A stretch of DNA of 64,000 bases, taken from contig JANPZY010000004.1 in the NCBI GenBank assembly GCA_024707325.1, positions 558,001 to 622,000 on the forward strand, read 5' to 3'. Both the position numbers and the translations under genes were made by a program. Under the pieces are notes generated by a model. It worked only from the letters and a program-made list of their open reading frames with translations. It was not told the DNA's origin and did no database searches. The stretch is from Opitutus sp. Lineage in GTDB: Bacteria > Verrucomicrobiota > Verrucomicrobiia > Opitutales > Opitutaceae. This document shows positions 2,007 to 61,139 of the stretch, piece by piece; within the stretch, counting starts at the first letter, position 1; each line of letters starts with the position of its first letter.

Positions 2007-2975
2007 ATGAAACCTGTCCGCCTCCTCCTCGTTGCGGCCGCTCTCTGCTCGGCCGTTTTCGCTGCCGACTCCAAAACGCTCTTCAAGATCACGGTGCAGC
2101 TCGACTGGGTGCCGGAGCCCGAACATGGCGGTTTCTACCAGGCACTCGCGCGCGACTATTTCCGCGAAGAAGGACTCGATGTCGAACTCCTCCCCGGCGG
2201 CCCGAACGCCCTCGTCATGCCCAAGGTTGCCACCGGGCAGGCCGATGTCGGCCAGGCCGACAGCACCAACACGCTCCTCCAGCAGGCCGAGGGCCTGCCC
2301 GTCGTGCAGTTCGCCGCTGTCTTTCAGGACGATCCTTCCGGCCTCCTCGTCAACGCGAGCAGCAGCGTGCAACGCTTCGAGGATCTGCAGGGCAAGACCA
2401 TCATCGCGCGTCCCGAGTGGGCGTTTCTTCAGTATCTGAAAAAGCGATACAACCTGCAGTTCAACGTCGTCCCGCAGAACTTTTCCGTCGCCGCTTTCCT
2501 CGGCAACAAGGAGGCGATCCAGCAGGGTTACTACATCGCCGAGCCGTATCACATCGTGCAGGCCGGAGCGCCGATGCCGCGCTTCCTTTCGACGTGGGAC
2601 GCCGATTTCCGCGCCTACGCGGTGCTCGTGACCAATCGGAAATTCGCCCGCCAGAATCCCGAGCAGCTCCGCGCCTTTGTGCGCGCCTACATCCGCGGTT
2701 GGCGCGATTACCTCGAGGGCGATCCCACACCGGCGCACGAAGCGCTCAAGCGCGCCAATCCGAACAACACCGACGAGTTCATGATGTTCTCCCGTCAGAT
2801 GATCATCGACGGCAAACTCGTGACCGGCCGCGACGCCAACGGCGGTCCGGAAAACGTCGGTCGTCTCGATCCCGCGCGCTTCACAAAACAAATCGAGCAG
2901 CTCGAATCGCTCGGCATCCTGAAACGCGGCAAAGTCGCCGCTGAGAACGCGATCACGACCGATTTCCTGCCCTAA
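2007..2975 (+). CDS. ABC transporter substrate-binding protein, NMT1/THI5-like
   Basis: signal peptide; VQLDWVPEPEHGGFYQALARDYFREEGLDVELLPGG is the NMT1/THI5 signature region. Confidence 0.9.
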   Translation: MKPVRLLLVAAALCSAVFAADSKTLFKITVQLDWVPEPEHGGFYQALARDYFREEGLDVELLPGGPNALVMPKVATGQADVGQADSTNTLLQQAEGLPVVQFAAVFQDDPSGLLVNASSSVQRFEDLQGKTIIARPEWAFLQYLKKRYNLQFNVVPQNFSVAAFLGNKEAIQQGYYIAEPYHIVQAGAPMPRFLSTWDADFRAYAVLVTNRKFARQNPEQLRAFVRAYIRGWRDYLEGDPTPAHEALKRANPNNTDEFMMFSRQMIIDGKLVTGRDANGGPENVGRLDPARFTKQIEQLESLGILKRGKVAAENAITTDFLP

Positions 2976-2976
2976 C

Positions 2977-3140
2977 GCGTCCCGAGTCGCGCCGAAGTCC
3001 GTCCATCGTCGGGACACAGTGCGGCTCGAGTCGGGGCAAGGTGCGTCCACGGTCGAGCCAAGATCCGGACCGGGTCGCGCCACGTGCCGCTTTACGTCGG
3101 GACGGAGTGCGGCACACTCCGAGCCCATGTCCGCTCCGAC
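2977..3140 (+). repeat. 22-bp tandem repeat array A
   Basis: units 2997-3018, 3019-3040, 3041-3062, 3063-3083, 3084-3106, 3107-3128, e.g. GTGCGGCTCGAGTCGGGGCAAG and GTGCGTCCACGGTCGAGCCAAG; preceded by a partial unit. Confidence 0.85.
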
Positions 3141-4317
3141 CGATGCCCGTGCACGCTTCTTCTCGCTCCTCCGCGCTGCGGTGGACAGCGGCGCGTGGTC
3201 GAAACTCACGCTCGGCAAATACCGCGGCGCCGACGCCACGCTGCGCAATGTCTTCGTGCGTCCGGTCACGCTGAAGAGCGGGCCCCATCTCACGTTCGTA
3301 TGGCGGTATGAGACGCGCGACGTGACGAAAAACCTCCCGCCTGCGGAAGCGATCGCTCAGATCGATGCGCTCATCGGTCGCGATTTTCTGGACGCGCATC
3401 TGTTCACCGCGACGGAAAATGCGCAGTTCGAGACGCAGCCCGACGGTTCTGCACGTCTCCGCGTGAAGAAAGTTTCCACGTCGAGTGCGGCTGCGCCCGC
3501 AGCGTCACACAACCGCGCGAAAAACCATCTCATCGATCCGTTGTCCTCGTGGCTGCGTGCGCTCGGCGTGACCAACGACCGCGGCCACGCCAGCGAAGGC
3601 ATGGCGGACAAACTTCGGCAGATCCAAAAATTCGCCGAGTTGCTCACGCACCTCCTCGCCGATCTGCCCGCGCAAACCGAACCGCTCGCGATTGCCGACA
3701 TGGGCAGCGGCAAAGGCTATCTCACCTTCGCTGTCGCCGCGTTATTGCGCGAACGCGCCCGCGTCGTCGGCATCGAAGCGCGACACGAACTGGTGGAGTT
3801 GTGCAACCGGATCGCCAGCGAACACGGATTGGCCGAGGTGCTTCGCTTCGAAACCGGCACCATTGCGGAAGCGACGCTCACGAAGATCGACGTGTTGATC
3901 GCGCTGCACGCGTGCGACACGGCGACGGACGACGCGATCGCGCGCGGTATCGCGGCCGATGCCAAACTCATCGTCGTCTCGCCCTGCTGCCAAAAGGAAC
4001 TGCGCGCACAGCTCACAGCGCCGCCGGTGCTCGCTGACGCGTTGCGTCACGGGATTTTCCAGGAACGACAGGCCGAGTTCGTCACCGATGCGATGCGCGC
4101 GCAACTGCTCGAGTGGGCCGGCTATCGCACGAAGGTCTTCGAGTTCATCTCGACCGAGCACACCGCGAAAAACCTCATGATCGCCGCTGTGAAAGCGCAC
4201 GCCCCCGGCGAGGCCGCACGCGCGGCGCGGTTGCGCGAGTTCGCGGCGTTTTACGGGATCCGCGAACAGCGCCTCGCGTCGCATCTCCATTTCCCGCTCG
4301 CGGCCCAAAGTTCGTAA
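3127..4317 (+). CDS. class I SAM-dependent methyltransferase
   Basis: MGSGKGYLTFAVAALL motif I; start chosen as ATG 3127 because the upstream ORF extension translates the repeat array. Confidence 0.8.
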   Translation: MSAPTDARARFFSLLRAAVDSGAWSKLTLGKYRGADATLRNVFVRPVTLKSGPHLTFVWRYETRDVTKNLPPAEAIAQIDALIGRDFLDAHLFTATENAQFETQPDGSARLRVKKVSTSSAAAPAASHNRAKNHLIDPLSSWLRALGVTNDRGHASEGMADKLRQIQKFAELLTHLLADLPAQTEPLAIADMGSGKGYLTFAVAALLRERARVVGIEARHELVELCNRIASEHGLAEVLRFETGTIAEATLTKIDVLIALHACDTATDDAIARGIAADAKLIVVSPCCQKELRAQLTAPPVLADALRHGIFQERQAEFVTDAMRAQLLEWAGYRTKVFEFISTEHTAKNLMIAAVKAHAPGEAARAARLREFAAFYGIREQRLASHLHFPLAAQSS

Positions 4318-9217: not shown

Positions 9218-9367
9218 GTGATGAGTCGCGACGCGAGCCGCACCTTCTCGCGACAAGGTCCGCACCTGGGCTCGACATGGGACGCACTTTGTCCCGACTC
9301 GGTGCGGACTGTGGCACGACTCGGTCCGAACCCTGGTTCGACTCGAGCCGCACGCGGGCGCGGGTCA
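9218..9367 (-). repeat. 22-bp tandem repeat array B
   Basis: six consecutive 22-bp units 9236-9257, 9258-9279, 9280-9301, 9302-9323, 9324-9345, 9346-9367; abuts stop codon of the histidine kinase. Confidence 0.9.
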
Positions 9368-11563
9368 GCCCTTGATGTTGCCGAGTCTGGCGACGACGGC
9401 GCGCAGACGTTGGATGTCGACGGGCTTCGTGATGTGTTCGTCGAAACCGGCGTCGTAGCACGCGCGGAGATCATCCTCCATGCCGTAACCGCTGAGACAG
9501 ATGCCCGGAATGTCGGGCCGGATCGCGCGAATCTGTCGCATGAGCTGCAGGCCGCTTTGATCGGGCAAGCCGAGATCGGAGATGACGAGTTCGAACTCCT
9601 TCTGGCGAAACGTGGCGAGTGCGGTTTGCGCGTTTTCGGCGTGCTCGACGGCGTGACCGCTGTTGCGCAGGAGACGTCCGATGATGCGGCCCGTGTCGAT
9701 GTGATCCTCGACGAGGAGAATGCGCAGCGCGCGGAACGGCGTGGCGCTGCGGTGCAGCTCGCGCACGAAGGGCGGCACGCTGTCGTGCGTGGGCGGAGGA
9801 GCGGCGTTCAACGGCAGCTCGACGGTGAACTTCGCTCCTTTATCCACGCCTTCCGAATACGCGTGGATCGCACCGTGATGGAGCTCGACCACGGCTTTCG
9901 CGATCGCGAGGCCGAGTCCCAGACCGCCACCGGTGGTGCGCCGCACGGGAGCCCCCGCCTGCTCGAATGGACGGAAAATGCGCGTAAGATCCTCGGAGTC
10001 GATGCCGACGCCGGAATCCACGATCTCGATCGCGACCCGCGCAGGCGGCTCCGGAATGACGCGAGCGGTGACACTGATGCGCGCCTTCGGCGGGCTGAAC
10101 TTGCTGGCGTTTTTGAGCAGGTTCCAAAACACCTGCTGCAGACGCGGACCGTCGCCGGAAACGGTGCAGCCTTGCGACTGATCGAGAGCGAGGACGAGCA
10201 CCTGATCTTTCGCGTCGATATCGGCGGCGACGACCTCGGCGGTTTGCATGATGAGCGCCGGAACCGCGAGCGTCTCGTGCACGAGATCGAGTTTCCCCTG
10301 ACTGACGCGCGTGAGATCGAGCAAGTCATCGATCAGCCGGCTCTGGATGCCGACGTTGCGGCGGATCATGCGAATGTCGTCGCGAACATCTTCCGGGAGG
10401 CGCGGATCTTCCTCCAGCGCGCCGGCGGCTGCGAGCACGGGCGTGAGCGGCGTGCGCAGCTCGTGCGAGAGCATCGCGAGGAACTGGTCCTTCGCGCGAT
10501 TCGCCGTCTCGATTTCGCGAGCGCGATCGGTGAGCACCCGCTGCCAGCGGAGGCCTTCGCCGATGAGACCACATTGCGCGGCCACCCACTCGATCATGCG
10601 AAACTGATCCTGCGTCCAATGCGCCGGCTGCACGCTGAAGCCGACAAGCACGCCCGTCGCCGCTCCGGCCACGCGGACGGGCGTGGCGATGATCGAGCGG
10701 ATACCATGCTCGGGTTTGAGCGGGCCCGCGACATCCGGGCGTTGCGCGAGGTCGTGCACGTAGGCGGTTTTGTCCTCCTCGAGCACGATGCGAATCAGCG
10801 AGTCGGCGATCGACCACACTAGCGGGAACTCCATGCTCTGATTCGCGCTGGCGTGCGCCCGGAGATTCAGGCTGTCGCCATCGCGTTCGAGATACGCGAG
10901 CGCTTCGGCCGGCGCGCCGAGGATGCGGACGGCGCGGCCGCAAACTTCCTGGAGCGCGCGCTGCCCGTGCTCCGGATAACGCGTGGCTTGGAGAAGGCCC
11001 TGGAGAATTTCCTCGCGGGTTCCGAGACGGACGTTGGCGTCCTGCAGTTCTTCGTTCTGACGCTCCATCTCCTCCGCCTGCGCCTCGATCTCTTCGCTTT
11101 GTTGCGCGAGTTCCTCGGCCTTGGTTTTGATTTCCTCGTTCTGCTGCTGGAGCTCCTCGGACTGTGCTTCCAGCTGGCTGTTGATCGCAGCGATGCGCGC
11201 GGACTGTTCGGCCGTGAGCGTTTGCTGCCGCAGCACGAATTGCACGATCGCAGCGCCCACGATCACGTTGACCATAATGCCGACAAAGTAGAGCTCGGCC
11301 TCATGTGCCGGCACACCATGGGACGGCAGTAGCACAAACGATTTCACCGCCGCGAAGACGGCAAACGCTCCGGCCATCGACCAGAGCTGCCAGCTGCGCC
11401 GCGTCCACAGACACACGAGCAACGGCAACACGAACGTCAGCGGAAAAACCGCATCCGGAAACAGGATCAGACGCGCATACCCCCACCCGCCGGTAAGCGC
11501 TGCGACGACGAGCGTGCTCACCCAGGCGGAAGGCCGCGAGCGACGGACGTTCGCCTCAGTCAT
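9365..11563 (-). CDS. hybrid sensor histidine kinase (N-terminal TM region, coiled coil, GAF, HisKA, HATPase, REC)
   Basis: FLAMLSHELRTPLTPVL H-box; GGLGLGLAIAKAVVELH; receiver ILLVEDHIDTGRIIGRLL...VISDLGLPDQSG; start chosen at MTEANVRRSRPS. Confidence 0.93.
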   Translation of the reverse strand: MTEANVRRSRPSAWVSTLVVAALTGGWGYARLILFPDAVFPLTFVLPLLVCLWTRRSWQLWSMAGAFAVFAAVKSFVLLPSHGVPAHEAELYFVGIMVNVIVGAAIVQFVLRQQTLTAEQSARIAAINSQLEAQSEELQQQNEEIKTKAEELAQQSEEIEAQAEEMERQNEELQDANVRLGTREEILQGLLQATRYPEHGQRALQEVCGRAVRILGAPAEALAYLERDGDSLNLRAHASANQSMEFPLVWSIADSLIRIVLEEDKTAYVHDLAQRPDVAGPLKPEHGIRSIIATPVRVAGAATGVLVGFSVQPAHWTQDQFRMIEWVAAQCGLIGEGLRWQRVLTDRAREIETANRAKDQFLAMLSHELRTPLTPVLAAAGALEEDPRLPEDVRDDIRMIRRNVGIQSRLIDDLLDLTRVSQGKLDLVHETLAVPALIMQTAEVVAADIDAKDQVLVLALDQSQGCTVSGDGPRLQQVFWNLLKNASKFSPPKARISVTARVIPEPPARVAIEIVDSGVGIDSEDLTRIFRPFEQAGAPVRRTTGGGLGLGLAIAKAVVELHHGAIHAYSEGVDKGAKFTVELPLNAAPPPTHDSVPPFVRELHRSATPFRALRILLVEDHIDTGRIIGRLLRNSGHAVEHAENAQTALATFRQKEFELVISDLGLPDQSGLQLMRQIRAIRPDIPGICLSGYGMEDDLRACYDAGFDEHITKPVDIQRLRAVVARLGNIKG

Positions 11564-15715: not shown

Positions 15716-15900
15716 AGCTCGGGCACGAAGTCAGCCCGACAAGATCCGCTGCGGTGCGTGCAGCACTCTGTCGTTCTGCGCGCAGCGAAAGAAACGTGGC
15801 TCGTGTTTCCGCCCGTTTCCGCACTTCGGCTTTTTTCGCGTTCCCGCGATTCGTTCTCCGTCGTCCGTGCTTCCGTGTTTCCGCGATCAATTCCAACTCA

Positions 15901-16019
15901 CGCCGCACTTCGGCACGACGATGTCCGCACATCGTCGCGACTCGGTCCGAACCTTGGCTCGACCGTGGACGGACCTTGGCGCGACTCGGGACGCACTCGG
16001 TCCCGACTCGGTGCGCTCA
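15901..16019 (-). repeat. 22-bp tandem repeat array C
   Basis: units 15901-15922, 15923-15944, 15945-15966, 15967-15988, 15989-16010 plus partial running into the M23 stop codon. Confidence 0.88.
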
Positions 16020-17036
16020 GGGAATCGCGAAGAGCTGTTGCAGGACGGTTTTCAGATCCGAGCCGATCACCCAGTCGCCCTGCTTTTTCGTCGCGAGCGT
16101 TTTGCTGCGTTCGCGGCGGATGAGCGGCTCGTTGGCGCGCACGATCACCGGCTGGTCGGGTTTCAGTTTCATGTCGAGCACCTGCATCGGCGTGAGCGGC
16201 GTCCACGCAAACGGCAGTCCCGTCCAGTCGAACTGAATTTCCCACCCGCCGACTGCGTCTGGCAGCGGCTTCGTCAGCAACGCGGGATAACGTGTCACAA
16301 AATCCGGCACGCGACGCGTCGAAATCCGCAACGCGACCGCGGGCGGGAGCCGGCGGAAATACTCTTCGAAATTCGCCACGTGGCCGGCACGCCACTGCAT
16401 GTAGAAATCGAGCGCATCGACGCCCATCAGGTTCATGCCGTTCCAGATGTTGTGCTCGTTGCGGCTGCCAAACTTGCGCGAGTCATACCAGCGCTGAAAA
16501 TCACGAGTCATCATCAGCCCGATCTCGAAGTGCAGGTGCGCGCGTTCCTTGGGGATCACATAACCACCCGCCGAACGCCCGATGGTGCCGACAGGTTCTC
16601 CGGCCTGGATTCGGTTTCCCACGCGCAGTCCCGGAGTGATCTGCGCGAGATGCGCGTAGAGCGTGTAAACCGCCGGAGACACCTCCGTGTGCTCGAGCAC
16701 GACGTAGCGGCCGTAGCTACTCTTGCCCGCGACGGCACTGATGTGACGCACCACACCATCCATCGCGGCGACGGCTCGATCGGTCGGATTGCCCGCGCGG
16801 TCGCGATTGCGCGGTTTGATGTCGATGCCCTCGTGAAACTGCTTGCCGCCGCTGCGCACGCCGCCGAAACCGCCGGACTTCGGATCGCCCGAGCCCGCGT
16901 GTTGCAGGATTTCAGTGGCGGGAACGCCCTCGCGGAGCGGCGTTTCGGGCGCCGGCCAGACGAAGCTCACGCGCTGAGCCGCGAGCGACGAAACCGCGAG
17001 GAATGAGAAAAGGAAAAGAGAGATGAAGCGCATCAT
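16017..17036 (-). CDS. M23-family (LytM-like) peptidase, secreted
   Basis: signal peptide; HEGIDIKPRNRD and HLHFEIG metallopeptidase motifs. Confidence 0.85.
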   Translation of the reverse strand: MMRFISLFLFSFLAVSSLAAQRVSFVWPAPETPLREGVPATEILQHAGSGDPKSGGFGGVRSGGKQFHEGIDIKPRNRDRAGNPTDRAVAAMDGVVRHISAVAGKSSYGRYVVLEHTEVSPAVYTLYAHLAQITPGLRVGNRIQAGEPVGTIGRSAGGYVIPKERAHLHFEIGLMMTRDFQRWYDSRKFGSRNEHNIWNGMNLMGVDALDFYMQWRAGHVANFEEYFRRLPPAVALRISTRRVPDFVTRYPALLTKPLPDAVGGWEIQFDWTGLPFAWTPLTPMQVLDMKLKPDQPVIVRANEPLIRRERSKTLATKKQGDWVIGSDLKTVLQQLFAIP

Positions 17037-23394: not shown

Positions 23395-25333
23395 ATGAAC
23401 GAACCCGCCTCCGCCTCGCCTCAACGTCTGTTGCCGTCGATCCACGGTCCCGCCGACGTAAAGGCTCTCTCCCCTGCCCAGCTTCCGCAGCTCGCGCAGG
23501 AAATCCGTGACGAACTCATCGCGGTCACCTCTAAAAACGGCGGACACATCGGCCCCAACCTCGGCGTCGTCGAGCTCACGCTCGCGCTGCACCGCGTGTT
23601 CACCACACCCGAGGATCAGTTCGTGTTCGACGTCGCCCACCAGGGCTACGTGCACAAACTCCTCACCGGTCGCGGCGGCGAATTCTTCAAAAAACTCCGC
23701 CAGTCCGAAGGCGCGAGCGGTTTCCTCTATCGCTCCGAAAGTCCGCACGACGCATTCGGCGCCGGTCACGCCGGCACCGCCCTTTCCGCCGCGCTCGGCA
23801 TGGCGACCGCACGCGATCTGCGTGGCAGTTCGGAACACGTCGTCGCGATCTGCGGCGACGCGGCGTTTACCTGCGGCGTCACGCTCGAAGCGCTGAACAA
23901 CGTCGTCTCCGCCACGAAGCGCCTGATCGTCATCCTCAACGACAACGAGTGGTCGATCGCCAAAAACGTCGGTGCGATCTCGCAGTATCTCAACCGGATC
24001 AGCACCAGCCCGACCTACAACAAGCTCCACCACGACGTGGAGAAGTTCTTCACGAGTTTCCCGACCGGCGCGGAGATGAACCGGCTCTACCAGAAGTGGA
24101 AACGCGAGACGAAGGACTTCTTCGTCGAGTCTTCGCTCTTCGAAAAATTCGGCCTCCGCTATCTCGGTCCGGTCGACGGTCACGATTTCTCCGCGCTCAC
24201 GAAAAACCTCGAGTTCGCGAAGCAGTGCGATGTGCCCGTGCTGATCCACGTGCTCACGAAAAAGGGCAAAGGTCTCCCGCCCGCGATCGCGCATCCCGAG
24301 CGTTTCCACGGCGCGAGCCCCTTCGATCCCGCGACGGGTGAAAACAAAAAACCCGCACCCGGCACGCCGCCGAATTACCAGGACGTTTTCGGCCAGGCGC
24401 TCACCCGCTTCGCGAAACTCGATCCGAATATCGTCGGCATCACGGGCGCGATGCCAAGCGGCACCGGTCTCTCACACCTCGCTCAGGAATTGCCGCGGCA
24501 GTTCTTTGACGTCGGCATCGCCGAAGAGCACGCGGTCTTGTTCGCCGCCGGCCTCGCCACCAAAGGCATCAAGCCGGTCTGCGCGATTTACTCCACGTTC
24601 CTCCAGCGCGCCTACGATCAGGTCATTCACGACGTCGCGCTGCAGAACCTGCCCGTCACGTTCTGCATGGATCGCGCGGGCCTCTCGCCCAACGACGGTC
24701 CCACGCACCACGGTCTCTTCGATTTGGCCTACCTCCGCTGCGTGCCGAACGTCGTCGTGATGCAGCCCAAGGACGAAGACGAACTCGTCGACATGCTGCA
24801 CACCGGCCTGACCTGCGGCTCGCCGTCCTTCATCCGTTATCCGCGCGGCGCCGCCGTCGGCGTGCCGATCAAACCCGAGCCCGCGGCTCTGCCCATCGGA
24901 CAAGCGGAAGTGCTCCGCCAAGGTTCCAACATCATGCTCTGGGCGCTCGGCTCGATGGTGCAGGACGCGCTCCAACTCGCCGACCGCCTCGAAGCCGAAG
25001 AAGGACTTTCGGTCGGCGTCGTAAACGCGCGCTTCGCGAAACCGCTCGACCGCACGCTGCTCCTCAGCCACGCCGCGTGTATCCCACTTTTGGTTACACT
25101 CGAAGACCACGTCGTCGCCGGCGGTTTCGGCAGCGCCGTGTGCGAAGTGCTGCAGGAAGCCAACTGTCCGACCGCCGTCGAGCGCATCGGCTGGCCCGAC
25201 AAATTCATCGAACACGGCAGCAGCGTGGAAATCCTCCGCGCCGCTCACGGCCCTCGCGCCCGACGCGATCTTCCAGCGCGTGGTCGACCGCTGGCGCCAC
25301 CTCCACGCCGAACACGTCGAAGCCGACGTGTAA
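23395..25333 (+). CDS. dxs: 1-deoxy-D-xylulose-5-phosphate synthase (frameshift near C-terminus, 25251-25253)
   Basis: GGHIGPNLGVVELTLALH, GDAAFTCGVTLEALNN, DVGIAEEHAVLFAAGLA, MDRAGLSPNDGPTHHGLFD; true C-terminus LAPDAIFQRVVDRWRHLHAEHVEADV lies in another frame. Confidence 0.93.
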
Positions 25334-25350
25334 GGAAGACGGACTTCTCA

Positions 25351-25379
25351 AAAAGCCCGGGAAAATGCCGGGCTTTTTT
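25351..25379 (+). terminator. intrinsic terminator downstream of dxs
   Basis: AAAAGCCCGG-gaaaatg-CCGGGCTTTTTT. Confidence 0.88.
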
Positions 25380-25397
25380 GCGCTCACGCTGCGTGAA

Positions 25398-25426
25398 ACA
25401 ACCCGCCGGGGACGGCGGGTTCCACC
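25398..25426. repeat. 29-bp dispersed palindromic element (copy 2)
   Basis: identical to 9135-9163; internal palindrome AACCCGCC-ggggac-GGCGGGTT. Confidence 0.9.
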
Positions 25427-25509
25427 CGGTCTGTCATTCTGAACGCAGGGACACGTTTTGCCTCAGCCCTTTTCTCCTTTGCGCGCTTCGGTGACCGGGT
25501 TGCAACCAT

Positions 25510-25641
25510 GTCTGCACCTCGTCGCGACCGTGTCCGCACTTTGTCCCGACTCGGTGCGCGATGTGTCCCGACTCGGGACGGACCTTGGCGCGACGTGGCC
25601 CGCACACGGGCAAGACCCGGTCCGCAATGCGGCGCGACTTG
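25510..25641 (-). repeat. 22-bp tandem repeat array D
   Basis: exactly six 22-bp units (25510, 25532, 25554, 25576, 25598, 25620), ending 12 nt from the tRNA 3' end. Confidence 0.92.
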
Positions 25642-25653
25642 AGCGATTTGCAG

Positions 25654-25728
25654 TGGTGCGGGCGGCGGGAATCGAACCCGCCTCTCAGGCTTGGGAAGCC
25701 CACATAATAGCCGATATACTACGCCCGC
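25654..25728 (-). tRNA. tRNA-Gly (anticodon CCC), CCA encoded
   Basis: reverse complement GCGGGCGTAGTATATCGGCTATTATGTGGGCTTCCCAAGCCTGAGAGGCGGGTTCGATTCCCGCCGCCCGCACCA; 7-bp acceptor stem, loop TTCCCAA, T-loop GGTTCGATTCC. Confidence 0.92.
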
Positions 25729-26378: not shown

Positions 26379-26494
26379 AATTTTCGATTTTGGATTGGTG
26401 ATTTTCGATTGTGGCGCGGCATTCGAGATGAAGTTGCCGCGCCGTTTTCCGTCTCCGGGAAAATCGAAAATCGAGAATCGAAAATCCAAAATCA
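26379..26494. repeat. imperfect inverted repeat flanking a GC-rich hairpin
   Basis: outer GATTTTCGATT-type repeats on both sides; inner hairpin GGCGCGGCA (26413-26421)/TGCCGCGCC (26435-26443). Confidence 0.65.
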
Positions 26495-54679: not shown

Positions 54680-55861
54680 ATGCGCGTCCACTTCATCAAT
54701 CGCTTCTACTGGCCGGACGAGCAAGCGACGGCCCAATTGCTCACCGATCTTGCTGAAGGTCTCGCTGCGCGCGGCCACACCGTGTCGGTCATCGCTAGCG
54801 CGCCCGCGCGCAAAGACGCACGGCCTCGCGAGCGCAATGGCGTGCAACTCCGCCACGTGCGCACTACGCGCTGGACTTCGCTCGGTCTCGCAGGTCGTGT
54901 CGTCGACTTTCTCACGTTTTACGCCGGCGCAATCTGGAGGCTGTTTCGCGAAACGCGCGGCGGCGATGTCGTGGTCGCGCTCACCGATCCGCCGTTGATC
55001 GGAGTGGTCGCAAGCTGGATCGCTGACCTGCGTGGCGCGCGGCTCATCCATTGGGTGCAGGACATTTACCCCGAAATCGCGGTCGCGCTGACCGGCCAAC
55101 GCTGGCTGCACATGACGCGACCGCTGCGCGATGCCGCGTGGCGACGCGCTGACACGTGCGTCGTGCTGGGCCCCGCCATGGCCCGGGTCGTGACTGAGTG
55201 CGGCACGAGTCGGGACAAAGTGCGCATCGTTCCGAACTGGGCACCGGCTCAAGTCGAACCGATGTCCGTCACGGAGGTGGACGCACTGCGGCGCGAGTGG
55301 GATCTGGAAGGGAAATTCGTCATCGGCTATTCCGGCAACCTCGGCCGCGTGCACGATCTCTCCCCGATTCTTCATCTCGCCGACGCGCTGAGAAACGAGA
55401 CCGACATTCGTTTTGTCTTCGTCGGAAACGGCGCCCAGCGCGCCGAACTCGAAGCCGAGGCGCAGCGGCTCGCGTTGTCCAACGTCGCTTTTCATCCGCC
55501 GCAACCGCGCGGCCGCTTGGGCGCCGTGCTCGCACTGCCCGACGTGCATCTCGTCACGCTGAAACCAGGCTGCGAGGACTATGTTTTTCCCAGCAAGACT
55601 TATGGCGCCGCGCAGGCTGGCCGCCCGGTGCTCTTCATCGGACCGCCTGCATCCGATCCGGCGCAAGCGATCATCGATCATGGTTTCGGTCTCGCGTTCT
55701 CGCGCGAGCAGATCGCCGAAGCCGCATCAGCGATAAAGAATCTGCGCAACGATCCCGCGCTGCGCGCTTCGCTGGCTGAAAATGCCACGCGCTTCTCGCG
55801 TCACGACGCTCAGTCGGCGATCGCGGCCTGGGATTCCCTGCTCGCCGGATCGCTCCGGTGA
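54680..55861 (+). CDS. glycosyltransferase family 4 (WbuB-like)
   Basis: MRVHFINRFYWPDEQATAQLLTDLAEGLAARGHTVSVIAS; FVIGYSGNLGRVHDL; VFPSKTYGAAQAGRPVLFIG. Confidence 0.9.
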   Translation: MRVHFINRFYWPDEQATAQLLTDLAEGLAARGHTVSVIASAPARKDARPRERNGVQLRHVRTTRWTSLGLAGRVVDFLTFYAGAIWRLFRETRGGDVVVALTDPPLIGVVASWIADLRGARLIHWVQDIYPEIAVALTGQRWLHMTRPLRDAAWRRADTCVVLGPAMARVVTECGTSRDKVRIVPNWAPAQVEPMSVTEVDALRREWDLEGKFVIGYSGNLGRVHDLSPILHLADALRNETDIRFVFVGNGAQRAELEAEAQRLALSNVAFHPPQPRGRLGAVLALPDVHLVTLKPGCEDYVFPSKTYGAAQAGRPVLFIGPPASDPAQAIIDHGFGLAFSREQIAEAASAIKNLRNDPALRASLAENATRFSRHDAQSAIAAWDSLLAGSLR

Positions 55862-58720: not shown

Positions 58721-59464
58721 TCACGCGTCCGACTTCGCCGCGCTCGCGATCGCGAGCAGATCGACGAGATCCACGCGGCCTTCGTAAAGCGCCTTGCCCA
58801 CGATCACGCCGTCGAGGCGGACGTGACGCTGCGATAGCTTCGTCAATTCGACCACGTCCTCGCGCCGGCTCACGCCGCCGCTCGCGATGATGCGGCATTG
58901 CGTGGCGTTGAGCATCGCTTCCTGCGCCGCGTAGTTCGGGCCGGTCAACATGCCGTCGGTGCCGATGTCGGTGTGAATGATCGTGGCCACGCCGAGCGCG
59001 TTCATGCGCTGCGCGAGCGTCACCGCGCTGAGGTCCGCCGTGGCAACCCAGCCTTTGACCGCCACCTTGCCGTCCTTCGCGTCGATGCCGACGGCGATCT
59101 TGTCGCCGAAACTCTGCACGAGTTCGCCGACGAACGCCTCGCTCTCGGCGGCGCGCGTGCCGATGACGACACGCGAAACGCCAAACCCCAGCGCGCGCTC
59201 CACTGACTCGCGCGTGCGCAGTCCGCCGCCGAGCTGCACCTTCATGCCGAGCGCGGCGATCGCCTGCACCGCAGCGAGATTCTGAGGCTCGCCGGCAAAT
59301 GCGCCATCGAGGTCCACCACGTGCACCCACGCGCTGCCGGCGGCTTTGAACTGCGCGGCCACGTCGGCCGGATTCTGCGCGTAAACGGTTTCCTGATCGG
59401 CGCGTCCCTGCGTGAGCCGCACGGCGCGTCCACCTTTGATGTCGATGGCGGGATAGATGGTCAT
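58721..59464 (-). CDS. hisA: phosphoribosylformimino-5-aminoimidazole carboxamide ribotide isomerase HisA
   Basis: MTIYPAIDIKGGRAVRLTQGRADQETVYAQNP; VQLGGGLRTRESVERAL; HTDIGTDGMLTGPN; IIASGGVSRREDVVEL. Confidence 0.95.
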   Translation of the reverse strand: MTIYPAIDIKGGRAVRLTQGRADQETVYAQNPADVAAQFKAAGSAWVHVVDLDGAFAGEPQNLAAVQAIAALGMKVQLGGGLRTRESVERALGFGVSRVVIGTRAAESEAFVGELVQSFGDKIAVGIDAKDGKVAVKGWVATADLSAVTLAQRMNALGVATIIHTDIGTDGMLTGPNYAAQEAMLNATQCRIIASGGVSRREDVVELTKLSQRHVRLDGVIVGKALYEGRVDLVDLLAIASAAKSDA

Positions 59465-59626
59465 TCGCCCCCGACGCTCATGTTTTTTCCCCGCTCCGTA
59501 AAACCTTATTCTCCGTCGGAAACGCCCCGGATTGCACGTCTACTATTGGATGACATTGTGGCGAGCCCGGAGGCGTGGGAAAGTTTTCCGCTTTGCGTCG
59601 ATTTCGGCGACGGAGAGAATAGGCGC

Positions 59627-60694
59627 ATGTCCAATTACTCCGTTCCCCCTTTCCTGAGTGAACTGCTGCATGCGCGCTCGCCCTCCGGCTACGAGGCCGA
59701 GGCCCAGGCTGTTTACGACAAATACGTCAAAGGCTCCGCCGACGAATACTCCGGCGACGCGCTCGGCAACCGTATCGCCACGCTCAACCCGAAGGGCGAT
59801 CCCGTGCTCATGCTCGCGGGCCACATGGACGAGCTCGGCCTCATCATCACCTACGTCAACAAGGACGGTTATCTCTATTTCGACACCATCGGCGGACACG
59901 ATCTCAGCGTGATCTCCGGCCGTCGCGTGATCATCCAGACCGCCAACGGTCCGGTGAAAGGCGTCACCGGCAAGCGCGCGATTCACCTGATGGACGAGGA
60001 GGATCGCAAACGCGTGCCGAAGAAGCACGAGATCTGGATCGATATCGGCGCCTCGTCGAAAAAGGACGCGCTCGCGCGCGTCTCGATCGGCGACGTCGCC
60101 ACCTACGATCACGAACTCGAACTGATCAACGGCAGCATCGGCACCGCTCGCGCCTTCGACAACAAAGTCGGCGCCTACATCGTCGGCGAAACGCTCGTTC
60201 GCCTCGCGAAGGAGAAGAAGAAACTCGCTGCCAAGGTCGTCAGCGTCGCGACTTCGCAGGAAGAGATCGGCACGCGCGGCGCCACGACCGCGGCGTATCT
60301 CGTGAACCCGCACATCGCCGTCGCGATCGACGTCGGCCACGCCACCGATCACCCCGATTGCGACAACCGCCGCTTCGGTGAAACCAAACTCGGCGGCGGC
60401 CCGATCCTCTGCCGCGGCGCGAACATCAATCCCAAGGTTTACCAGAAGCTGCTCGCGGCCGCGAAGAAGGCGAAGATCCCGTATCAACTCGAGGCGGATC
60501 CCCGCCCCACCGGCACCGACGCGCGCGCGATCCAGATGGGCCGCGGCGGCGTGGCGACCGGCCTCGTGAGCATCCCGCTCCGCTACATGCACACGCCGAG
60601 CGAGGTCGTGGATCTCGAAGACGTGGAACGTTGCGTGAAACTCCTCGTTGAGTTCGCGAAGTCGCTCGAAAAAGGCGACTACGCCCACTGGTAA
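59627..60694 (+). CDS. M42 family metallopeptidase (glutamyl aminopeptidase-like)
   Basis: PSGYEAEAQAVYDKYV; LMLAGHMDELGLIITYV; ARAFDNKVGAYIVGETL; ATSQEEIGTRGATTAAY. Confidence 0.92.
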   Translation: MSNYSVPPFLSELLHARSPSGYEAEAQAVYDKYVKGSADEYSGDALGNRIATLNPKGDPVLMLAGHMDELGLIITYVNKDGYLYFDTIGGHDLSVISGRRVIIQTANGPVKGVTGKRAIHLMDEEDRKRVPKKHEIWIDIGASSKKDALARVSIGDVATYDHELELINGSIGTARAFDNKVGAYIVGETLVRLAKEKKKLAAKVVSVATSQEEIGTRGATTAAYLVNPHIAVAIDVGHATDHPDCDNRRFGETKLGGGPILCRGANINPKVYQKLLAAAKKAKIPYQLEADPRPTGTDARAIQMGRGGVATGLVSIPLRYMHTPSEVVDLEDVERCVKLLVEFAKSLEKGDYAHW

Positions 60695-60695
60695 G

Positions 60696-60970
60696 GCTCG
60701 GTCCCGACTCGAGCCCGAGTGCGTCCCAAGTCGCGACCAAGTGCGGACGCGGTCGCGACAAGGTGCGCACATCCTTGAGCAAAGGTGCGGACACGGTCGA
60801 CCAAAGGTCCGCACACGCTCGACCGAAAGTCCGCACGTGGTCGCGACAAGGTGCAGCCCTCGTCGCACGAAAGTGCGGACATGGTGGCGACAAGGTGCGT
60901 GCCGGGTCGCAACGATGTGCGCACTCGAGAACCGGCGGTGCGGCATGGGTCGAGCCGCGGTGCGCTCCCG
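60696..60970 (+). repeat. 22-bp tandem repeat array E (longest)
   Basis: about 12 units in register from 60719 to 60959, e.g. GTGCGGACGCGGTCGCGACAAG, GTCCGCACGTGGTCGCGACAAG, GTGCGGACATGGTGGCGACAAG. Confidence 0.95.
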
Positions 60971-60976
60971 CTCATT

Positions 60977-61093
60977 TGTCATTCTGAGCGAAGCGAAGAA
61001 TCCAGCTGGAGACTCGTAGTCGCGCACCGCAACGAAGTGCGCACTGGATGTCAGACTAGCCTTCCGCTGAACTTCGCTTCGCTCAGAATGACA
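60977..61093. repeat. 117-bp element with perfect 22-bp terminal inverted repeats
   Basis: TGTCATTCTGAGCGAAGCGAAG (60977-60998) and its exact reverse complement CTTCGCTTCGCTCAGAATGACA (61072-61093). Confidence 0.9.
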
Positions 61094-61099
61094 GGAAAC

Positions 61100-61139
61100 G
61101 AAAACGCGGAGCAGCGCATGTGCGCCGCCCCGCGTTTTT
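61100..61139. terminator. bidirectional-looking terminator downstream of the GH9 gene
   Basis: AAAACGCGGagcagcgca-tg-tgcgccgccCCGCGTTTTT imperfect stem with flanking A/T tracts. Confidence 0.65.

Follow-up and report, generated by a model that had tools for sequence, protein, structure and literature searches.

Evenly spaced arrays of a 22-bp unit in an Opitutus-related genome: a possible DNA uptake or transfer signal that evolved in place

The uptake sequences of Haemophilus (USS, Pasteurellaceae) and Neisseria (DUS, Neisseriaceae) arise through point mutations, avoid stretches that are constrained or newly acquired and are distributed relatively evenly, and molecular drive is sufficient to explain them (PMC7811141, PMC1939737, PMC1626085). 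The arrays of a 22-bp unit that we describe here resemble these sequences in their hundreds or more of copies, their origin by point mutation in place, their relatively even spacing, their depletion in new and constrained DNA, their occurrence in both orientations, their lineage-specific dialect and their helically phased parts (PMC7811141, PMC1626085, PMC1939737). They differ in that the known cores measure 9–12 bp and lie ~1 kb apart, whereas the object found here is a multi-unit array of ~132 bp and the spacing is ~11 kb; in addition, the phylum is another one and single units are not enriched. The strong gyrase sites of Escherichia coli, where the gyrase motif covers ~130 bp with a phased 10-bp variation in G/C and where BIME-2 elements bind gyrase (PMC6379681), are similar in length and in phasing near the helical repeat (PMC6379681), but the arrays have a sequence-specific 22-bp unit, a variable length and no transcription-linked placement beyond promoter avoidance. 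REP/BIME elements also occur in hundreds of copies, are extragenic, often at 3′ ends, and partly palindromic; REPs are, however, copied elements with conserved ends, whereas the array units share no copies, the arrays are evenly spaced and in part intragenic, and phased 22-bp tandem units are foreign to REP anatomy. Iteron centromeres such as ParR/parC of plasmids consist of tandem, phased short sites with an 11-bp period that are likely read by dimers. The arrays are likewise tandem and phased with an 11-bp period, but such centromeres have one site per replicon, as against ~400 sites dispersed along the chromosome here. A literature search gave no described element of matching type and size, and no Rfam family matched the arrays.

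The window, i.e. the whole 64-kb stretch of DNA that was analyzed, contains at positions 60694–60913 (plus strand) an array in which 10 units of 22 bp follow each other without a shift in register. This array lies in a convergent intergenic region and matches the 22-bp profile with a score of 163–166 bits. It is followed by a degenerate tail of 2–3 units (60914–60970, plus strand) with a register slip of ~1 bp, so that the ‘about 12’ units counted in the initial annotation were a fair estimate; the 8-3-8-3 layout proposed there is also borne out by the profile. The array starts at the TAA stop codon of the upstream M42-type aminopeptidase-like gene, whose conserved part (59621–60694, plus strand) abuts the array. 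In two relatives (G001 and G006), hisA is located directly 3′ of the M42 gene in the same direction with no array between them, whereas in the window (58721–60694) hisA is upstream of the M42 gene on the opposite strand. Since the gene order differs from that of both relatives, the array lies at a rearranged junction. Just beyond it, at 60975–61105, there is an inverted pair of GTCATTCTGAGCGAAGCGAAGAATC and its complement, possibly a small palindromic element adjoining the array; GTCATTCTGAGCGAAGCGAAGAATC resembles a dispersed repeat of many bacterial genomes.

The four further arrays that had been reported for the window were all recovered with the 22-bp profile, which added a weak fifth. The array at 2972–3147 (plus strand, 7–8 units) is located between co-directional genes directly after a stop codon, and that at 9225–9356 (minus strand, 6 units) lies 8 bp beyond the 3′ end of the minus-strand gene 9365–11563. 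The array at 15890–16021 (minus strand, 6 units) occupies a convergent intergenic region, and the one at 25499–25630 (minus strand, 6 units) is flanked by the 3′ end of the gene 23395–25494 on one side and by a minus-strand tRNA (25657–25728) on the other. The weak array (55195–55238, plus strand, 2 units, score 36) lies within the reading frame of a family-4 glycosyltransferase. The stretch without arrays from 25.6 to 55.2 kb, or to 60.7 kb when the weak in-gene array is excluded, is a polysaccharide gene cluster and probably foreign DNA. The genes of this island (25700–55000) include an asparagine synthase-like gene, a Wzt-like ABC transporter, a carbamoyltransferase and several glycosyltransferases. 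A 7-bp repeat, GAAAATC, occurs five times in tandem at 26459–26493, close to the 3′ border of a small gene on the minus strand.

The unit has the layout s(3) a(8) t(3) b(8) with the consensus AAG GTGCGGAC CGA GTCGMGMC, the consensus of the 22-bp profile being AA[G/A] GTGCG[G/C]AC CGA GTCG[A/G/C]G[C/A]C. Its two 11-bp halves are alike (expected identity 0.41 vs. 0.27 for background), and it is pseudo-dyadic, with a dyad symmetry of 0.51 at the best reverse-complement phase. The most constrained columns include b2 (T 0.93), b3 (C 0.95), b4 (G 0.95), a4 (C 0.96) and a5 (G 0.98), while b5, t3 and a6 are almost unconstrained. Of 736 unit-to-unit steps, 729 measured exactly 22 bp, as determined with an array finder that penalizes other steps. 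There were strong local column dependencies across the array units (a6–a7, b5–b7 and the spacer words), none of which is accounted for by base pairing in the units genome-wide. In box b, the combinations A..C, G..A and C..A/C are permitted at columns 5 and 7, whereas A..A or G..C is rare. Spacer t retains one pyrimidine-purine step (0.90 vs. 0.74 expected), which possibly reflects DNA-shape readout. The median array has 6 units, i.e. 132 bp (interquartile range 110–176 bp), and the units at the edges are weaker than those in the center. As solitary units outside the arrays were barely enriched (47 vs. 37 per Mb at score 12), it is the array and not the single unit that is the enriched object.

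With a profile trained on the window and 20 blind 20-kb stretches, 135 arrays (864 units) were found in 1.26 Mb of the genome at a score of at least 20, against none in 400 kb from four relatives and none among codon-shuffled genes, an over-representation of the genome-wide kind known from uptake sequences. The scan against shuffled sequence that had been suggested in the initial annotation gave 46 arrays in 464 kb vs. 0 in three order-3 Markov shuffles (score ≥20). Extrapolation to the 4.04-Mb genome gives ~400 arrays (about 402; 99 per Mb), a density for which the 400 kb of blind stretches, with their 40 arrays, are the main source, as a second batch of stretches was partly picked near known matches; the contiguous regions considered below are unaffected. 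No array was detected in 251 further genomes from the family, among them a congeneric one, and no matches were obtained in 392 other genomes of the order or in viral contigs, plasmids and phages. Nor was any seen outside this genome in an exact-pattern scan of other GTDB species or, among the matches listed, in a first scan of named genomes. The large genome searches used stricter filters, yet they gave 23–40 matches in this genome. A motif-agnostic analysis of the samples from the four relatives (400 kb) did not show 22-bp periodicity.

Analysis of two contiguous, mutually independent regions showed that the arrays are more evenly spaced than expected by chance, with a mean interval of 10.9 kb and a combined median of 9.2 kb. 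The null model, random placement in intergenic slots weighted by context, has a CV of about 0.9. In the region C3:1.98–2.53 Mb (550 kb), the intervals between 51 arrays (mean 10.7 kb) had a CV of 0.46 vs. 0.92 for the slot null, none of 5,000 draws was equally even (p<2e-4), and 1 interval was shorter than 4 kb vs. 14 expected. In C1:558–970 kb (412 kb, window included), the corresponding values for 38 arrays were a mean interval of 11.0 kb, a CV of 0.56 (p=2e-4) and 1 interval below 4 kb vs. 10.3 expected, so that the two regions together had 2 such intervals vs. ~24 expected. The blind 20-kb stretches contained 2.0 arrays each, with a variance of ~0.5. Stronger arrays were flanked by wider gaps (rho 0.24, p=0.025), and weak arrays (score <60) tended to sit far from strong ones, with p=0.011 in one region and p=0.23 (not significant) in the other; gaps of 27–31 kb between arrays also occur. 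With CVs of 0.46 and 0.56 vs. ~0.9, the arrays share the more-even-than-random distribution of uptake sequences.

In the two contiguous regions, arrays were present in 35 of the 80 convergent gaps, in 40 of the 285 tandem ones and in 4 of the 102 divergent ones, and 10 further arrays were counted as coding. Many arrays begin within ~30 bp of a stop codon, and in tandem gaps their median distance is 26 bp to the upstream stop and 104 bp to the next start, a pattern that fits promoter avoidance. The genes were called with a simple home-made caller, and some of the arrays counted as coding fall in doubtful calls; several in-gene arrays lie in real genes. At L119 (3447–4964), the frame opens as NAD-synthetase-like and seems to lose frame before the array, which may thus lie beyond a truncated NAD-synthetase-like end. 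Codon use was less typical in genes far from arrays, strongly so in the window (rho −0.52, p=6e-5) and weakly in the 550-kb region (rho −0.10, p=0.04), which corresponds to the depletion of uptake sequences in newly acquired or constrained DNA. The initial annotation had recognized a real array family but overlooked its ~400 members, their even spacing, their partial location in genes and the fact that they were seen in this genome alone.

Two in-gene arrays bear on how the arrays arose. PDB alignments of the glycerate kinase and the RsmB-like methyltransferase pass through the array with only small gaps. The array of the glycerate kinase covers a variable surface segment, the length of which is as in most relatives; the conserved residues P..W..I and IACD are kept, and the divergence from the relatives (0.31) equals that among the relatives (0.31). 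Since the alignments show no insertion, both arrays have been written into existing DNA, and mutation in place rather than insertion is also how uptake sequences arise. Placement follows what the DNA can tolerate: behind stop codons, in convergent gaps and at times within variable gene segments.

We propose, with a probability of roughly 0.4, that the arrays serve as a signal by which self DNA is recognized in uptake or transfer and which has spread by molecular drive. One dimer of a DNA-binding protein would cover each 11-bp half-unit (an 8-bp pseudo-palindrome plus a 3-bp spacer), and several such dimers would have to cooperate on one helix face, so that the array and not the single unit would be the signal. 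Uptake (or packaging) and recombination would favor fragments with a strong array, whereby the point mutations that build arrays would be driven to spread, until there was about one strong array per fragment length (~10 kb); near an existing array the drive would stop. Molecular drive predicts even spacing, an origin in place, placement limited by tolerance, a lack of arrays in new DNA and a dialect specific to the species, and it is the combination of these features, with the dialect being lineage-specific, that appears to favor uptake or transfer. ComEC and DprA genes are present in the genome; they are necessary for this proposal but not specific to it, as both are widespread, also in bacteria without uptake sequences. 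The arrays may work like an uptake sequence but are not classed as one, since the short core of 9–12 bp acting singly is lacking, solitary units being hardly enriched. The AAGTGCGGa of the unit differs by one mismatch from AAGTGCGGT, the core in H. influenzae; since perfect copies of that core show no enrichment in this genome, the similarity was set aside as coincidence. The proposal is weakened by the fact that even spacing and evolution in place are also expected from a selected architectural role.

It is quite conceivable, if tentative, that the arrays represent a new chromosomal element, built in place also within genes, in which a lineage-specific protein reads phased arrays every ~11 kb, giving ruler-like domains (or a transfer signal). 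The main rival to uptake is that the arrays are anchors of chromosome architecture, on which a lineage-specific nucleoid, segregation or condensin-type protein, e.g. a ribbon-helix-helix dimer bound every 11 bp, would sit, forming domains of ~10 kb, with selection keeping about one array per domain. This reading accounts for spacing and phasing as well as uptake does, the orientation data also fit, and the ~11-kb spacing is close to the size reported for the topological domains of E. coli. Tandem 11-bp iterons, as used in plasmid ParR/parC centromeres, and Arc half-sites, which are 11 bp apart, offer precedents. Its weak point is the absence of the arrays from all relatives, i.e. the 251 other genomes of the family, whereas core chromosome biology is usually conserved; moreover, gaps of 27–31 kb are tolerated, and the selection of ~400 arrays one by one would be demanding. 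We regard an architectural role as possible but somewhat doubtful.

The remaining alternatives are less compatible with the data. That the arrays are strong DNA-gyrase sites, at which phased DNA wraps gyrase and arrays 3′ of genes absorb positive supercoils, would agree with the median length of 132 bp and the frequent location at 3′ ends; it is nevertheless unlikely, because the arrays vary in length between 44 and 352 bp and lack a central break, because their motif is sequence-specific and missing from relatives that also have gyrase, and because the 3′-end bias looks like promoter avoidance, the in-gene arrays lying away from transcript ends. Dense, genome-wide arrays depleted in foreign DNA could also be Chi-like sites or markers of self, used in recombination, repair or a restriction-type defence to halt degradation of the cell's own DNA about every 10 kb. 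However, sites of the Chi type are short and follow the direction of replication, whereas the orientation of the arrays was random relative to GC skew (p=0.24), and the full set of 183 arrays showed no replication or gene-orientation bias (a mild excess of the minus strand in one contig region vanished in the full set). Such a role is very unlikely.

An element that moves or duplicates in tandem (of the REP/RAYT, MITE or satellite type), with target immunity possibly giving the spacing, is highly improbable, although there are hundreds of dispersed copies, the genome has one weak Y1-type (RAYT-like) transposase (Y1_Tnp match of 27.9 bits), and a hard-core (immunity) model gave a CV of 0.57 vs. 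the observed 0.46 (p=0.06). Non-adjacent units within an array were 60.4% identical and units of different arrays 60.9%, which supports the initial annotation in discounting recent duplication, and adjacent units reached 63.3%; a satellite or VNTR formed by tandem duplication is thus rejected. Whole-array copying is likewise rejected, as almost no pair of arrays exceeded the random-unit null. The REP/RAYT class, a shared palindrome with tagged ends that spreads by copying, does not apply, since no conserved sequence was found in the array flanks and the in-gene arrays are not insertions. The uneven constraint on the columns and the absence of local similarity and of indels disfavor neutral decay of a duplicated repeat. 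These observations indicate that the arrays evolved in place and argue for selection (or drive) acting on each unit.

Folding of the arrays (n=111) was no better than that of the same units after their order had been shuffled (z 0.05 and −0.01), the folding z-scores against random units were null, and the array columns displayed no base-pair covariation; a within-array column shuffle gave z of about −1, which reflects only the local column dependencies. The array strand was independent of the gene strand (19 same, 21 opposite). As folding, covariation, strand and Rfam are all negative, recognition at the DNA level remains, indicating that the arrays are protein-read DNA. Of the two options in the initial annotation, RNA pairing is therefore not supported, and protein binding is preferred on the basis of the register, the column-specific constraint and the random orientation; the G/C ‘flip’ between boxes is explained by the ordinary variation of box column 3 (G 0.72, C 0.23) and is not a pairing signal. 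A main role as intrinsic terminators or 3′-UTR RNA elements, which the proximity to stop codons and the hairpin-capable self-complementary boxes might suggest, is refuted, as strand specificity and conserved RNA pairing are absent and arrays also occur within reading frames.

Evenly spaced signals that evolved in place have been described, in the literature examined, only for the uptake sequences of two proteobacterial families. If the arrays are an uptake signal, this would extend such signals to a new phylum and a new scale, that of cooperative arrays of ~132 bp, and provide a direct test of the molecular-drive theory. If they are architectural, they would constitute a regular physical ruler of ~11 kb on a bacterial chromosome, and the setting of domain boundaries would become directly testable.
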